Assembly: GCA_937923365.1 (NCBI GenBank)
Contig: CALAIJ010000014.1
Coordinates: forward strand, 1-12,628
DNA length: 12,628 bases
Source: an uncultured Sulfitobacter sp.
Lineage (GTDB): Bacteria; Pseudomonadota; Alphaproteobacteria; Rhodobacterales; Rhodobacteraceae
Direction of reading: 5' to 3'
This document shows positions 54-6,117 of the stretch, one piece after another (position 1 is the first letter of the stretch; each line of letters starts with the position of its first letter). Below the pieces are notes generated by a model. It searched no databases, was not told the origin of the DNA, and was given only the letters and a program-made list of their open reading frames with translations. The translations under genes and the position numbers were made by a program.

Positions 54-962
54 TCACCCCTTCACTACACCCTCAAACTCCCGCCATTCCCCCTTCGACA
101 TCCCCGAAGTCTCCTGTGTGACCTCTTCGCCCGCCAGCATCCGGCGGACGCAATCCAGGGCTTTGCCGCTCATCGTGGCACCGCCTAGGCGGTAGTCCTC
201 GAAAGCTCCGTAAGCCGCTGGAACCCAGTCTTTGACCATTTCGCAGATGGCGTCGGCGTAGACGCGGATTTCGTATTGGGCGTGTTTGTCGGCCCGTAAG
301 CGCAGGAAGTGGAAGAGGTTGTGCAGGTCCACTTTCCAGTACCATTGGGTGTAAATGTTGGCGGGGAGGTTCATGCGGGCGAGCTCTCGGGCCAGGCCGT
401 CTTGACCTTCGTCGGAGATCATCTCTTCGTAGTGGTCATAGGCGCGATTGCTGTCGGCCTTGAGGATTTCCAACACGCGGGCGGCTTCGGCCCCTTCCAG
501 CACGCCTCCCCTGCCCTGATTGTTGATCACGGACTGCGCGTTGATGTGTTCGGGTGCCGGGATGTAGAATTCGCGGTCCAGAATGGAGTAGCGGGCGGAG
601 TATTCGTTCACGTTGGCGGTGCGGTGGCGGATCCATTGGCGGGCGACAAAGACCGGGAGTTTGACGTGCAGTTTGATTTCGCACATTTCAAACGGGGTCG
701 AGTGCCAGTGGCGCATGAGGTAGCGGATGAGGCCGGCGTCGTTTTGCACGGATTTGGTGCCCTTGCCGTAGGACACGCGGGCGGCCTGACAGATGGCGGC
801 GTCGTCGCCCATGTAGTCGATCACGCGGACAAAGCCGTGGTCCAGCACATTGTGCGCCTTGTAGAGGTGCGCCTCCATCCCCGGAACGGTTGCGCGGAGG
901 GTGGCGTGGGACGTGGCCCGCAGGTCGTCAATTTCGGCTTGTTGTTCAGGGGTCAGCGACAT
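54..962 (-). CDS. thyX: Flavin-dependent thymidylate synthase ThyX
   Basis: Makes dTMP from dUMP in the cytoplasm, using methylene-tetrahydrofolate as carbon donor and reduced FAD/NAD(P)H as reductant; it replaces ThyA in organisms that lack it. The ThyX signature RHRX7S is present as [11 protein letters not shown] (residues 112-122), inside the wider stretch [17 protein letters not shown]. The long FHFLRLR...AQYEIR region near the C-terminus is typical of alphaproteobacterial ThyX, and the 302-residue length fits. I chose the ATG at 962 because an AGGA lies 8 nt upstream. An in-frame GTG at 1001 would add 13 residues but has no clear ribosome binding site. The gene is single on its strand and divergent from the lipoprotein/Slam operon, so the two share a region of about 200 bp. 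No clear terminator is seen in bases 1-53. Identification is firm; only the start is open. Confidence 0.96.
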
Positions 963-1095: not shown

Positions 1096-1125
1096 TTGAC
1101 AGAAGGGGGGGCAAGGCCGGATCAT
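1096..1125 (+). promoter_or_regulatory. Candidate sigma-70 promoter for the lipoprotein/Slam operon
   Basis: A perfect TTGACA (1096-1101) is followed 18 nt later by GATCAT (1120-1125), a 4/6 match to TATAAT. Transcription would begin about 30 nt before the lipoprotein start at 1165. The -10 is weak and the spacer G-rich, so this is a proposal from pattern only. No iron-responsive operator that I could name was recognised next to it. Confidence 0.35.
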
Positions 1126-1164: not shown

Positions 1165-2274
1165 ATGAAAAAGCTAGTCGCAGGACTAATGCTGACCACG
1201 TTTCTGGTTAGCTGTGGTGGTACGCCACCTTTCCCAACCGAAGAGACCGCAAGCGAAGACGATACCGGTGATGGCACAGACGATACAGCCACGCCCATCA
1301 CAGGGGACCGCGTTGTGCCCCCCGGCACCACGTCGCCCTCGCCCGCATTGGGTCTGTTCCGAAACGAGGCACGCGATACCGAGGGTGAAAACATCGGTAA
1401 CGGATATGCCAACGAGGTGCGTTATGACGCCGCCAACGACACGTTCAGTGTCAACAACCTAGGCTTCGACGGCTTCAACACCTATCAGCGCGGCACAGCC
1501 GTCGGGTCGTTGAATGGCGAGTTTCAGGTCTATGAAGGTGCCAGTGTCGTCCCCGACAGCGTCACCGGCGCGCCCATCAGCCAGTTCACGCACCGCGCCA
1601 TCTATGGTGTCAGCCGCCTGAACGGGCCTGACGGCGTCACGCCCACATCCAGTTTCGCCATTGTGCGGACCGGAAACTACATCCCCTACGGCTTTGGTGG
1701 TTTCGTCTATCAACGCGAGGGGAGCGTCACGCTGCCCGCCACCGGTCAGGCCGAGTTCAAGGGCAAGGCCGCAGGTATCCGCGATTTCAACGGAGACGGC
1801 GGGTTGCAGTATTCAACGGGTGATATGCGCGTTGCCATCGACTTCAACGATTTTGATGATGATACCGGCCTGCGCGGCGATGCTGTGCTGGGTGAGCTCA
1901 CAAATCGTGAGATTTACGACATCAACGGCAACAACATCACGCAAACCGTGCTGGACAACATCAACGAAAGCGTTGGAAACGTTGACGATAATGCAGCCTT
2001 TGCCATCACGACCCTACCGGCAGCCGTGTTTACCGTGGGCCCCGGCGTTCTGGACAACAATGGCGATCTGATCGGCAGCGTGACCAGCACCGTGCGCACC
2101 GCAGATGGCGGCCAGCAATACGAAAGCGGCAAGTACTATGCCATCGTCTCAGGGGATGACCCCGACGAGATCGTGGGCGTGCTGGTGATGGAGAATACCG
2201 ACGACTTCGAGGGGGCAACCACCCGCGATACCTCGGGCTTTATTGTCTATCGGGACCCTGCAATCCAGCCATGA
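1165..2274 (+). CDS. TbpB-like surface lipoprotein, probable Slam (T11SS) cargo
   Basis: Predicted lipoprotein of 369 residues. A short signal peptide ends in the lipobox LVSC, with the lipidated cysteine at residue 17. An acidic, Thr/Asp/Pro-rich linker follows (about 18-60), as expected for a tether. The remainder is beta-rich. From about residue 185 it resembles the C-terminal barrel of transferrin-binding-protein-B-like lipoproteins: GQAEFKGKAAG near 194, then GLQYSTGDMRVAIDF, and a final SGKYYAIVSGDD...EIVGVLVME segment. Asp/Asn loops (DFNGDG at 207, DINGNN at 252, DNNGD at 297) could bind Ca2+. I chose the ATG at 1165 because GAGG lies 9 nt upstream; an ATG at 1150 and a TTG at 1096 have weaker sites. 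The stop overlaps the start of the Slam gene, so the two are almost surely co-translated. The ligand is unknown; transferrin itself would be implausible in a free-living marine bacterium. Confidence 0.8.
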   Translation: MKKLVAGLMLTTFLVSCGGTPPFPTEETASEDDTGDGTDDTATPITGDRVVPPGTTSPSPALGLFRNEARDTEGENIGNGYANEVRYDAANDTFSVNNLGFDGFNTYQRGTAVGSLNGEFQVYEGASVVPDSVTGAPISQFTHRAIYGVSRLNGPDGVTPTSSFAIVRTGNYIPYGFGGFVYQREGSVTLPATGQAEFKGKAAGIRDFNGDGGLQYSTGDMRVAIDFNDFDDDTGLRGDAVLGELTNREIYDINGNNITQTVLDNINESVGNVDDNAAFAITTLPAAVFTVGPGVLDNNGDLIGSVTSTVRTADGGQQYESGKYYAIVSGDDPDEIVGVLVMENTDDFEGATTRDTSGFIVYRDPAIQP

Positions 2275-3659
2275 TGGGACCTGCCTTTCGGCGGTTCGGA
2301 TATGCTGCGGCCCTGGCGCTATCAATAGCGCCGGGCTCGCAGGCCGAGGTCCGCATCTCCCCTGCCGAACTCAAGAAAGCTGCGGTGCTGAGCCTGCAAG
2401 GCAACGATCCCGCACGCGCCGTGGTCTTTGCCGAAGCCCTTTTGCAGCGCGACGAACAAGACCGCACTGCCCATCTGATCCGCGCCAGTGGATTGCGGCA
2501 GATGGGTCAATACGCCCCTGCCCAGACCTCTGCCCGTCAGGCGTGGCGCCTGTCCGAAACGGACGCCGAAAAATTCACCGCAGCCCGCGTGATGGCGCAA
2601 ACCCTGTCGTCAGACGGAAAACGCAGCCGCGCGCAGCTTTGGTTGCGCCGTGCCGTGCACCACGCGCCCTCTGTGCGCCACGAGCACCGTGCGCGCCGCG
2701 ACTTTGCCCATGTGCGCCAGCAAAACCCGTGGTCGACGCATCTGTCGTTCACACTGGCTCCCAATTCGAACATCAACAACGGCTCTGCCAATGACCGGTC
2801 GCTTCTGAACTACAAGATCAGCGAAATCCTGTTTGGCGAGCCTGTGGAATTCGCCCTCGATGGCGCAGCGCAAGCCTTGTCAGGGCTGGAATTCGGCGCA
2901 AGCGTGCAAACCCGCTACCGCTTTCACCAGACCCATGACACGGCGCACGATCTGAAATTCTCTGCCTCCTACCGCAGTTTCATGCTGTCGGGCAGTTCCA
3001 AAGATCAGGCACCCGGCGTGGAAGGCAGCGATTTTGCCTATGGCACCGTCGGGATCGGCTATGGCTACCGCAGGCTGAACCTTGAGCGGAAGGGCGAGTT
3101 CATGTTCGACCTTGACGCTGTCCAAAGCTGGTATGGCGGCGCGCGCTATGCCACCGCGCTGCGCGGGACAGTCGCCCAGACCTACAAGCCCAACCGCGAG
3201 ACCAACCTGCGCTTTTCCTTTCAGGCAGAGCATCAGGTGGGCCAGCGGACCTCGGACGTGGACACCTACAGGCTGACGGCCAGCATGAACAAGCGCCTCG
3301 CCTCCGGCAATCTGGCCTTTGTCAAGCTGGGGCTGGCCACGACCTCCTCCCCCACCGCGGATTCCGAGTATCGCGAAGTCGAACTGCGCGGCGGCTATGT
3401 GCTGGGCAAACCCGTTATGGGAGCCGCGATCCAGCTTGGTCTGGGCGCGTCATTGCGCGACTATGACGTATCGCGCCACAGCGCGGACGGGCGCGAGGAC
3501 CTCAAGATCACCGCCGACATCACCGCGACGTTTACGCAGATCGACTACTACGGGTTCAACCCCTCGGTCAGCCTGAGCGCATCAACCACCAGCAGCAACA
3601 TCGGGCTGTATGACAGCAACCGTGTAGGCCTGAGCATCGGCATCCGCTCCGCCTTCTGA
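2271..3659 (+). CDS. Surface lipoprotein assembly modifier (Slam, DUF560), T11SS outer-membrane translocator
   Basis: Outer-membrane protein of 462 residues (461 if the second ATG at 2274 is used). It has a signal peptide with probable cleavage after GSQA (residue 25). A helical region at about 32-135 reads as TPR-like repeats (GNDPARAVVFAEALL and MGQYAPAQTSARQAW). From NPWSTHLSF (152) onward it is a beta-barrel, with LAPNSNINNGS shortly after, a hallmark of the DUF560 barrel start. Amphipathic strands continue to a terminal phenylalanine (GLSIGIRSAF), the usual Bam signal. This TPR-plus-barrel layout is that of Slam proteins such as Neisseria Slam1 and Xenorhabdus NilB, which move specific lipoproteins to the cell surface. 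The start codon overlaps the stop of the lipoprotein gene, which points to that protein as its cargo. No TonB-dependent receptor is beside it, unlike the tbp/hpu systems. Confidence 0.85.
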   Translation: MMGPAFRRFGYAAALALSIAPGSQAEVRISPAELKKAAVLSLQGNDPARAVVFAEALLQRDEQDRTAHLIRASGLRQMGQYAPAQTSARQAWRLSETDAEKFTAARVMAQTLSSDGKRSRAQLWLRRAVHHAPSVRHEHRARRDFAHVRQQNPWSTHLSFTLAPNSNINNGSANDRSLLNYKISEILFGEPVEFALDGAAQALSGLEFGASVQTRYRFHQTHDTAHDLKFSASYRSFMLSGSSKDQAPGVEGSDFAYGTVGIGYGYRRLNLERKGEFMFDLDAVQSWYGGARYATALRGTVAQTYKPNRETNLRFSFQAEHQVGQRTSDVDTYRLTASMNKRLASGNLAFVKLGLATTSSPTADSEYREVELRGGYVLGKPVMGAAIQLGLGASLRDYDVSRHSADGREDLKITADITATFTQIDYYGFNPSVSLSASTTSSNIGLYDSNRVGLSIGIRSAF

Positions 3660-3730: not shown

Positions 3731-4165
3731 ATGCCGATCAAATACCTGCACACCATGGTGCGTGTGAAAGACCTTGATGCCTCCATCGCGTTCTACAAAC
3801 TGCTTGGGTTGGTGGAGCGCAGGCGCATGGACCACGAAGGCGGGCGCTTTACGCTGGTGTTCCTGTGCCCCCCCGGCATGGATGACGGCCACGCGGATGT
3901 GGAACTGACCTATAACTGGGACGGCGACGATGGCCTGCCCAGCGACAGCCGCCACTTTGGCCACCTTGCCTACACGGTCGAGAATATTTACGAGACCTGT
4001 CAGCACCTTATGGACAATGGCGTCACCATCAACCGCCCGCCCCACGACGGGCGCATGGCCTTTGTGCGCAGCCCTGACAACATCTCGGTCGAGCTTTTGC
4101 AGGAAGGCGACAGCCTTGAGCCCGCAGAGCCATGGACCAGCATGGGCAACACCGGATCCTGGTGA
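3731..4165 (+). CDS. gloA: Lactoylglutathione lyase (glyoxalase I)
   Basis: Cytoplasmic metalloenzyme of 144 residues that isomerises the hemithioacetal of methylglyoxal and glutathione to S-lactoylglutathione, the first step of methylglyoxal detoxification. It has two VOC modules. All four metal ligands expected from E. coli GloA are visible: His7 (YLHTMVRVKD), Glu58 (DVELTYNW), His78 (FGHLAYTV) and Glu121 (SVELLQ). Its length and the lack of the extra insertions of the eukaryotic Zn type suggest the short bacterial Ni/Co-type enzyme. The ATG has AAAGGA 8 nt upstream. Its TGA overlaps the ATG of the first DUF1194 gene by one base, so the three genes 3731-5579 probably form one transcript. 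I know of no functional tie between the enzyme and the DUF1194 proteins. Confidence 0.93.
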   Translation: MPIKYLHTMVRVKDLDASIAFYKLLGLVERRRMDHEGGRFTLVFLCPPGMDDGHADVELTYNWDGDDGLPSDSRHFGHLAYTVENIYETCQHLMDNGVTINRPPHDGRMAFVRSPDNISVELLQEGDSLEPAEPWTSMGNTGSW

Positions 4166-4875
4166 TGCGCGCGCTGGCCGCATCCACGCTGGCGCTGTCC
4201 TTGCTGGCCGGTACCGCGATGGCGGAATGCCGTCTGGCGCTGCTGCTGGCGCTGGATGTCTCCAGTTCTGTTGATGCCGCCGAGGACCAGTTGCAGCGCG
4301 GGGGTCTTGTCTCCGCGCTGATCTCGCCCGAGGTGCAGAACGCCTTCTTTGCCGCCGACCAGCCGGTCGCTTTGGGTGTCTACGAATGGTCAGGGCGCTA
4401 CAATCAAGAGGTCCTGCTGGACTGGACCCTCATCAACAATCGCGCCGATATCGTGCGCGCCGCAGAGGTCATTGCAGACAGCAAGCGCAGCCACAACGAT
4501 TTCCCCACCGCCATGGGATATGCGCTGGGTTTTGGCGCCGAGATGTTCGCCCGCGGGCCCAAATGCCTGCGCCAGACCCTTGATATGGCCGGCGACGGGC
4601 AGAACAACGAAGGCTTCGGGCCGTTGATCGCCTACCGCGAGTTTGCCTTCCAGGGGATCACGGTCAACGGGCTGGTGGTCAACGCCGCCGATTTCGAAGG
4701 CGAAGTCGGGCTGATCGCGTTTTACCAGCGCGAAGTCATGCGCGGCCCCGGGGCGTTTATCGTCATCGCCGATGGTTTTGACGACTATTCCCGCGCCATG
4801 CGTCAAAAGCTGGAGCGGGAATTGACGCCACCCAGCATCGGTGCGCTGACGCAGCCCGGCCAAGACGCAGGATGA
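4165..4875 (+). CDS. Exported DUF1194 protein, vWA-like, first of a tandem pair
   Basis: Protein of 236 residues with a Sec signal peptide (cleavage after GTAMA, residue 20), so probably periplasmic or secreted. The mature part is a DUF1194 domain, related to von Willebrand factor A. A MIDAS metal site can be read: D31-V-S33-S-S35, then T115 and D144 (DMAGDG). Cys22 and Cys134 recur in the next gene and may form a disulfide. The segment GFDDYSRAMRQKLEREL ends the conserved part; a short tail follows. I took the ATG at 4165, overlapping the gloA stop (TGATG), because it begins directly at the signal peptide; a start at 4132 would put a polar extension ahead of it. The stop overlaps the next start by 4 nt. 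The molecular role of DUF1194 is not known to me; MIDAS domains usually bind a protein partner. Confidence 0.85.
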   Translation: MRALAASTLALSLLAGTAMAECRLALLLALDVSSSVDAAEDQLQRGGLVSALISPEVQNAFFAADQPVALGVYEWSGRYNQEVLLDWTLINNRADIVRAAEVIADSKRSHNDFPTAMGYALGFGAEMFARGPKCLRQTLDMAGDGQNNEGFGPLIAYREFAFQGITVNGLVVNAADFEGEVGLIAFYQREVMRGPGAFIVIADGFDDYSRAMRQKLERELTPPSIGALTQPGQDAG

Positions 4876-5579
4876 TCCGCGCGGCGGTCCTGTGCGCCGC
4901 TGTTTTGTCGGCAGGCGTGGCGCAGGCGCAATGTCGGCAGGCGCTGGCCCTGGGTCTTGATGTTTCAGGCTCCGTCGATGCGCGGGAATACCGCTTGCAA
5001 CTGGGCGGGGTCGCCGCAGCACTGGATGATGCAGATGTGCGAGCCAAGATTTTCGCCATGTCCAGCGCGCCCATTCGGCTGATGGTCTACGAATGGAGCG
5101 GGCCAAGCGATCAGGCCACCTTGGTCGACTGGACCATTCTGCAGGATGAAGCCGCCTTGGACGGGGTGATCGAAACCCTGCGCCAGACCACGCGGCGCAC
5201 GGCCACCCCCGGCACGGCCCTTGGGGTCGCCATGCAATTGGGGCGCATCCACCTCGACACGCAGCGCGACTGTTGGAAACGGACCCTCGACATTTCGGGC
5301 GATGGGAAAAGCAATCTGGGCCCCCGCCCCCGTGACCTCAAAGCGCGCATTGAGGCCAGCGGCATCACCATCAATGCCTTGGTGATCGGTGCGGATGATC
5401 CAAACACCGGTGATACCCGACAGTCCGAAATCGGCGAGCTGTCGTCCTATTTCAACGCTGAGGTGATCCTTGGGCCGGATGCCTTTGTGTTGACCGCCAT
5501 CGGCTTTGCCGATTACGCCCGTGCCATGCGCCAAAAGCTGCTGCGCGAATTGGACGGATTGGTGTTCTCGCAGCTTTGA
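4872..5579 (+). CDS. Exported DUF1194 protein, vWA-like, second of a tandem pair
   Basis: Protein of 235 residues and a paralogue of the preceding gene, with a signal peptide ending VAQA (residue 19). The same landmarks lie at nearly the same positions: MIDAS D30-V-S32-G-S34, T115, D144 (DISGDG), and cysteines 21 and 134. Shared stretches include MVYEWSG, LVDWTI, SGDGKSN and GFADYARAMRQKLLREL. It differs in the 165-190 region, which carries an extra loop (DDPNTGDTRQSE). Its ATG overlaps the upstream TGA (ATGA), and AGG lies immediately before it, so translation is probably coupled. Divergence between the copies is large, so this is an old duplication rather than a recent one. Function is unknown; a pair of secreted adhesive or assembly subunits is one possibility. 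Confidence 0.85.
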   Translation: MIRAAVLCAAVLSAGVAQAQCRQALALGLDVSGSVDAREYRLQLGGVAAALDDADVRAKIFAMSSAPIRLMVYEWSGPSDQATLVDWTILQDEAALDGVIETLRQTTRRTATPGTALGVAMQLGRIHLDTQRDCWKRTLDISGDGKSNLGPRPRDLKARIEASGITINALVIGADDPNTGDTRQSEIGELSSYFNAEVILGPDAFVLTAIGFADYARAMRQKLLRELDGLVFSQL

Positions 5580-5612
5580 GCCGCCTTTGGCGTCACGCAA
5601 ATGTGCATCCCG

Positions 5613-5622
5613 CCCGCGCGGG
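5613..5622 (+). repeat. GC palindrome CCCGCGCGGG upstream of the YHS gene
   Basis: A perfect 10-bp palindrome lies 33 nt after the second DUF1194 stop and about 45 nt before the YHS gene start. A TAGGAT (5631-5636), which resembles a -10 element, follows, but no good -35 is seen. It could be a terminator stem without a T-run, an operator, or chance in GC-rich DNA. Confidence 0.25.
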
Positions 5623-5667
5623 TGATCTGCTAGGATGTGTAAGACGCCCAAGGGTTCGAGGTTCCCC

Positions 5668-6117
5668 ATGACCACATTTTCACGCCGCTTTTTTCTGACA
5701 AGTGCCGCGGCTTTCTGCGCCGCACCCGCAGCATTTGCGACCCCTTACCGCGTGGCCACAAACCGTGCGGGGATTGCCATGCAAGGGTACGACACGCACG
5801 CCTATTGGACCATTGCCGCCGCCCGCGAGGGCAGCTCGGATCATGTGGTGGACTGGCGCGGCAAACCCTGGCACTTCGCCAGTGCGGAGGATGCAGAGGC
5901 GTTCCGCGCGGACCCCGCAGCCTTTGAGCCGCAGTTCGGGGGCTATTGTACCCGCGCAATGTCGTTCAAAAAGATCGTTGATGGCGACCCGGAAGTCTGG
6001 CGTATCTATCAGGGCAAGCTGTACCTGTTCGCCAAACCGGTGGGCGGCACCAAATTCGACGCAGGGCAAGATGCCATGATCGCCAAGGCCCAAGCCCATT
6101 GGGACAGCCTAAGCTAA
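5668..6117 (+). CDS. Tat-exported YHS-domain protein
   Basis: Protein of 149 residues with a twin-arginine signal (SRRFFL, residues 5-10, then an alanine-rich stretch; likely cleavage after AAFA at 24). It should therefore be folded before export to the periplasm. The mature part resembles the YHS-domain family common in proteobacteria, with the order GIAMQGYDTHAYW, VVDWRGKPWHFASAED, FGGYCTRAMS and VWRIYQGKLYLFAKP. YHS domains are often linked to metal binding; the FGGYC cysteine and several histidines (such as WHF) are candidate ligands, and a Tat signal fits a cofactor loaded in the cytoplasm. The ATG at 5668 has GAGG 6 nt upstream; an earlier ATG at 5635 would bury the Tat motif and has no good site. 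It is convergent with the MarR-type gene, 25 bp away. Exact function is unknown. Confidence 0.85.
   Translation: MTTFSRRFFLTSAAAFCAAPAAFATPYRVATNRAGIAMQGYDTHAYWTIAAAREGSSDHVVDWRGKPWHFASAEDAEAFRADPAAFEPQFGGYCTRAMSFKKIVDGDPEVWRIYQGKLYLFAKPVGGTKFDAGQDAMIAKAQAHWDSLS

Follow-up and report, generated by a model that had tools for sequence, protein, structure and literature searches.

This 12,628-nucleotide (nt) window, the whole stretch of DNA analysed, raises the question of what role is served by a lipoprotein gene (1165..2274) and the overlapping gene of a predicted outer-membrane channel (2271..3659), both on the forward strand. The host is a Rhodobacteraceae bacterium whose nearest named relatives are Sulfitobacter, and judged from these relatives it is presumably marine. 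The original prediction described the two genes as a minimal type 11 secretion system (T11SS, or Slam) lacking an adjacent TonB receptor, and as an undescribed one. The assignment to type 11 secretion was supported: the genes very likely form a cognate Slam pair belonging to the marine 'cluster 3', a reading based on gene pairing, predicted folds, co-inheritance and the many hosts in which no TonB plug domain was detected. The claim of novelty did not stand, since the same locus (thyX, cargo, T11SS outer-membrane protein, gloA and DUF1194) is presented as marine cluster 3 in Figure 8 of Grossman et al. 2025 (PMC12282271), the only paper treating this locus that a literature search found. What is added to a locus type known since 2025 is the near-universal pairing of the two genes, their joint movement, the low likelihood of DUF1194 as cargo, and the many hosts without a detectable TonB receptor.

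Predicted folds of cargo and channel

The upstream gene encodes a predicted T11SS cargo, a surface lipoprotein of 369 amino acids, whose signal peptide (1165..1215) ends in the lipobox LVSC with Cys17. This cysteine is at least 90% conserved across 120 homologues, 114 of which satisfied the lipobox rule; the rule picks out 68 of 72 cargo open reading frames (ORFs) and 26 of 557 background ORFs comparable in length. Pfam and NCBIfam gave no match above cut-off for the window cargo, and its profile found no PDB sequence at E ≤ 1, so a fold comparison was needed. FHBP_C scored 14.8 bits, under its cut-off of 28.1, a profile match being an aid to detection and not a defining trait. At E ≤ 0.01, FHBP_C was found in 36 of the 120 cargo relatives and TbpB_B_D in 4, and the TbpB_B_D cut-off was passed by one of the 10 sister cargos scanned.

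In Foldseek, the confident cargo model resembles fHbp, haemophilin, TbpB and HpuA, all cargo of type 11 secretion; the list also includes unrelated barrels (DUF3598, BFA1). The C-terminal beta-barrel domain (residues 195–365, 1747..2259), with fold matches to fHbp, TbpB, NHBA and haemophilin, is the eight-stranded barrel expected of a cognate cargo, and a helix (residues 259–269) lies within one of its loops. It is preceded by an effector- or handle-like N-terminal domain (residues 52–194, 1318..1746; bounds taken from the model), which is the most conserved part of the protein. Columns conserved to at least 90% among the 120 relatives made up 38% of this domain, 25% of the barrel and 11% of the linker (residues 18–52), while pathogen T11SS cargo usually show the reverse, with a barrel more conserved than the N-terminal domain. 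This pattern of sequence conservation suggests one lasting ligand or partner.

The downstream gene, which starts at the cargo stop through an ATGA overlap (2271..2274), encodes the putative T11SS outer-membrane protein (Slam/DUF560/SlipAM) of 462 amino acids. It scored 24.5 bits against Pfam SlipAM/DUF560 (PF04575, cut-off 22) over positions 1–277 of the 288 in the profile. The original observation, a lipobox protein followed by an overlapping TPR and DUF560 barrel gene, was confirmed. A profile check for DUF560 and TbpB_B_D had also been proposed; the former was found above cut-off, and the window cargo stayed under every Pfam cut-off. Slam proteins consist of a periplasmic TPR domain and then a 14-strand barrel, and the channel model (predicted local distance difference test, pLDDT, 90.2; TPR and OmpG/CymA matches) has this architecture, with TPR helices at residues 31–151 (2361..2723) and 14 long strands forming the outer-membrane barrel at residues 154–461 (2730..3653). 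The models, made for each protein singly, agree with the folds first proposed. At E ≤ 1, the matches of the channel profile in the PDB fell nearly all on the TPR part.

Pairing and joint divergence across genomes

Conservation of the pair was surveyed in 149 Rhodobacteraceae genomes, drawn evenly from the larger family. The channel profile matched 80 of them and Pfam SlipAM 55. A cargo profile with rows selected regardless of gene position (A1; the window protein is one row) matched 46 genomes, the window's own among them; the channel was present in all 46, with the cargo just upstream on the same strand in 45. With a broader cargo profile (A3), 76 genomes were matched and 75 of the 80 channel genomes had a cargo, 71 of them just upstream. 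The 75 of 80 is partly circular, because 18 of the cargos in A3 were picked from these 149 genomes for their position ahead of a channel gene. Adjacency was defined as match ends within −120 to 900 nt, since some matches are partial. In one genome (G074) a weak cargo match adjoins a channel detected solely by Pfam SlipAM at E ≤ 0.001, and in another (G001) the cargo match lies one ORF further away and an unmatched lipobox ORF adjoins the channel.

A second set comprised named loci, the best 80 of 143 encoding a relative, which is biased to channels close to the query and includes some genomes also among the 149. In all 80, a same-strand cargo ORF ends no more than 200 nt from where the channel gene is estimated to start, in two (L132, L140) only as a contig-end fragment, and the cargo passed the lipobox rule in 73. 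A separate count over 60 loci gave a lipobox ORF directly upstream in 52; two others (L034, L037) have a cargo by profile. At L037 (genome G038) the channel gene is broken by an in-frame TGA, either a sequencing error or a decaying copy. The sole sampled genome of the same genus, 100% complete at 4.2 Mb, had no cargo or channel match, which makes the distribution of the module in the genus patchy. Judged by these matches, the cargo–channel pair is nearly universal among the sampled channel-bearing genomes and loci.

These counts speak to an issue that the published work leaves unsettled. TbpBBD was reported at 8 of 145 cluster 3 loci, and the options given were a cargo seldom co-occurring with the channel, a cargo below the similarity threshold, or a lost cargo; structure prediction found a cargo at 10 of 11 syntenic loci, the exception being Pseudooceanicola marinus LMG 23705 (PMC12282271). 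In that exception, a full-length lipobox cargo (382 bits) was found at about 4857–5885 of our locus L139, about 133 nt ahead of the estimated channel start, and the gene may have been unannotated. The survey favours the second published option, and argues against both the inference of rare pairing and the idea of DUF1194 as cargo in PMC12282271. Cluster 3 channels do have adjacent cargo, which Pfam-based searches missed.

Co-divergence was analysed in the 54 of the 80 named loci in which all five genes exceeded the length limits. Related loci do not count as independent here, and adjacency alone can make genes move jointly. Cargo and channel divergence correlated with r of 0.731, and with a partial r of 0.755 given thyX, gloA and DUF1194 (no permutation out of 999 reached this value; bootstrap 0.43 to 0.86). 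The immediate downstream neighbour, gloA, does not track channel divergence (partial correlation 0.086, 103 of 999 permutations). Among the less diverged pairs (158), the values were 0.56 for the cargo, −0.05 for DUF1194 and 0.10 for gloA. For 213 locus pairs with a thyX distance below 0.15, the channel distance exceeded 1 in 51 and the cargo distance in 34; all 34 fall among the 51, and the gloA distance exceeded 0.6 in none. Since cargo and channel jump jointly beside near-constant thyX and gloA, both genes seem to have been inherited or exchanged together, as one module between fixed neighbours.

Several observations weigh against a cognate pair. The SlipAM cut-off is exceeded by just 2.5 bits, the window cargo has no Pfam or NCBIfam match above cut-off, and PMC12282271 gives no transport or localisation measurement for any cluster 3 pair. 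Five of the 80 channel genomes have no detectable cargo (G045, G067, G079, G140, G146); the channel matches are weak in G045 and G146, and G079 has a short upstream lipobox ORF. At three loci (L072, L073, L074) the channel seems to lie directly beside thyX without a cargo gene; in genomes G060 and G061, whose channel seems to be so placed, weak cargo relatives occur elsewhere (L174, L175, L176). Conversely, locus L177 (G115) holds thyX, cargo, gloA and DUF1194 in order with the channel missing between cargo and gloA, and a weak channel match is found on a different contig of that genome. The partial correlations with the channel of DUF1194 (0.314) and thyX (0.330) are smaller than that of the cargo, yet each was reached in 0 of 999 permutations. 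Finally, of the 51 locus pairs whose channels differ strongly while their thyX genes are close, 17 have a cargo distance that does not exceed 1.

Possible transport route and alternative roles

Slam1 moves TbpB across in unfolded form, with Skp acting as the holdase (PMC9090332), and on this precedent the cargo should cross the outer membrane via its partner. The lipoprotein would be exported by Sec, lipidated on Cys17 and kept unfolded in the periplasm by a Skp-like holdase; the TPR domain of the partner would engage it, and it would pass through the 14-strand barrel to the cell surface, as in Slam and other type 11 channels. There, the C-terminal barrel would fold, with the lipid anchor kept and the conserved N-terminal domain facing outward. 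The host carries genes of the Skp type (PF03938) and for signal peptidase II (PF01252). By analogy, the channel very probably carries the lipoprotein to the surface, where our best guess only is that it would act as a TonB-independent binder or adhesin for one conserved ligand. A wider proposal, held tentatively and with rather more doubt than belief, is a TonB-independent T11SS branch in which a two-gene cassette is swapped as a unit at a fixed thyX–gloA site and displays a channel-specific surface binder or adhesin. If true, this cassette of marine Rhodobacteraceae would present a conserved outward domain, in contrast to pathogen cargo, which varies under immune pressure. A complete marine pair, with many hosts free of detectable TonB receptors, would also make an easy laboratory model for what a channel requires for recognition.

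The fold common to the cargo, TbpB, HpuA and haemophilins would also suit a TonB-coupled nutrient co-receptor (for haem, haem protein, cobalamin or a metal chelate) of the TbpB/HpuA kind, with its receptor elsewhere in the genome, and in 41 of the 75 pair-bearing genomes a TonB plug domain does occur somewhere. The remaining 34 gave no plug match at E ≤ 0.001 (33 of 70 among genomes at least 90% complete) with a model that could miss some TonB receptors, and plug and pair were not associated (41/34 against 44/30, Fisher p 0.62). The lack of an adjacent receptor, already pointed out in the original prediction, was borne out: none was found among the 12 window ORFs scanned (some smaller ORFs lay outside the scan), and the host assembly (64.75% complete) yielded no plug domain, so that the cognate receptor expected of such a co-receptor was not detected in either. 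With 34 of 75 pair-bearing genomes lacking a detectable plug, TonB-driven uptake is unlikely as a general role of the pair, and we consider the co-receptor explanation improbable.

A different cargo was also considered, since DUF1194 (vWA-like) proteins were raised among other options as the possible cargo in PMC12282271, where they are present at 102 of 145 loci. Synteny is strong here too, with at least one full-length copy at 67 of 80 named loci, and their partial correlation with the channel lies above all permutations. With thyX and gloA controlled for, the two copies taken apart barely track the channel (0.18 and 0.07, at 37 loci) while the lipoprotein reaches 0.81, and the published predictions give them alpha/beta folds without the barrel of known cargo (PMC12282271); that they replace the lipoprotein as real cargo is quite improbable. 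The channel might instead help to assemble or export a polysaccharide or another product of the envelope, as a BcsC/PelB-like TPR barrel with the lipoprotein as accessory, and BcsC and PelBC rank first for the channel model. None of the 50 Foldseek matches listed is a Slam entry, so this ranking cannot separate Slam from BcsC/PelB, and the SlipAM match of the channel, the fHbp/TbpB fold of its partner and a scan of window ORFs that turned up no gene for polysaccharide synthesis make such a role very improbable. A cognate type 11 secretion pair is the explanation retained.

Neighbouring genes and related systems

On the reverse strand, thyX (flavin-dependent thymidylate synthase, 54..962; Pfam Thy1, 195 bits) is a conserved divergent neighbour; its start was placed at the methionine of MSLTPEQQ (ATG at 962), the listed ORF opening at GTG 1001. 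Ahead of the cargo gene, a consensus scan found a −35-like TTGACA (1096..1101, forward strand), presumed to belong to the cargo promoter, and 63 of 64 upstream regions, each 230 nt long, contain TTGAC. Promoter and terminator scans of the window gave about as many sites as shuffled sequence (for promoters, 2 against a mean of 1.5), and no operon boundary is therefore claimed. The word ACTATATCTTG, at 1000–1010 and 38 nt ahead of the thyX start, was found whole in 7 of the 64 upstream regions and by its first eight letters in 30; we take it to resemble an NrdR box, and thyX may be under nucleotide-reductase control. The conserved word ACTATATC, on the thyX side, was not accepted as a cargo operator. 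This search covered enriched words only, and an Rfam scan of the window found no RNA element.

Downstream, about 70 nt past the channel gene, an apparently coupled second set spans 3731–5579 on the forward strand. It consists of gloA (glyoxalase/lactoylglutathione lyase, 3731..4165; Pfam Glyoxalase, 62.6 bits) and two DUF1194 genes, the first at 4165..4875 (228 bits; ORF from 4132), with an ATG sharing 1 nt with the gloA stop, and the second at 4872..5579 (217.5 bits), joined to the first by a 4-nt ATGA overlap. In the 80 named loci, where some contigs end early, these conserved neighbours were above length limits in 64 (thyX), 75 (gloA) and 67 (DUF1194).

Haemophilin/HphA and the NilC–NilB pair of Xenorhabdus also count among the nearest known systems. 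Haemophilins are haem binders; compared with haemophilin/HphA, the window cargo is a lipoprotein without evidence of haem binding. The Slam1 and Slam2 systems of Neisseria (cargo TbpB, LbpB, fHbp and HpuA) share with the window a SlipAM/DUF560 barrel with a periplasmic TPR domain, and a cargo with lipobox, handle and C-terminal barrel. Unlike them, the window pair has no TonB receptor partner found, its cargo is conserved in the N-terminal domain, and its sequence is too distant for the Pfam cargo models. All seven verified T11SS channels belong to the animal-associated cluster 1 (PMC12282271). The window channel is provisionally placed in cluster 3 by host family and synteny: thyX, gloA and DUF1194 are at the locus, and the published marine locus has the same genes in the same family (Roseobacteraceae/Rhodobacteraceae). 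The cargo likewise falls, with 369 amino acids, within the 282–375 of cluster 3 cargo, and it shares the helix in a barrel loop with the first five published cluster 3 models (PMC12282271).
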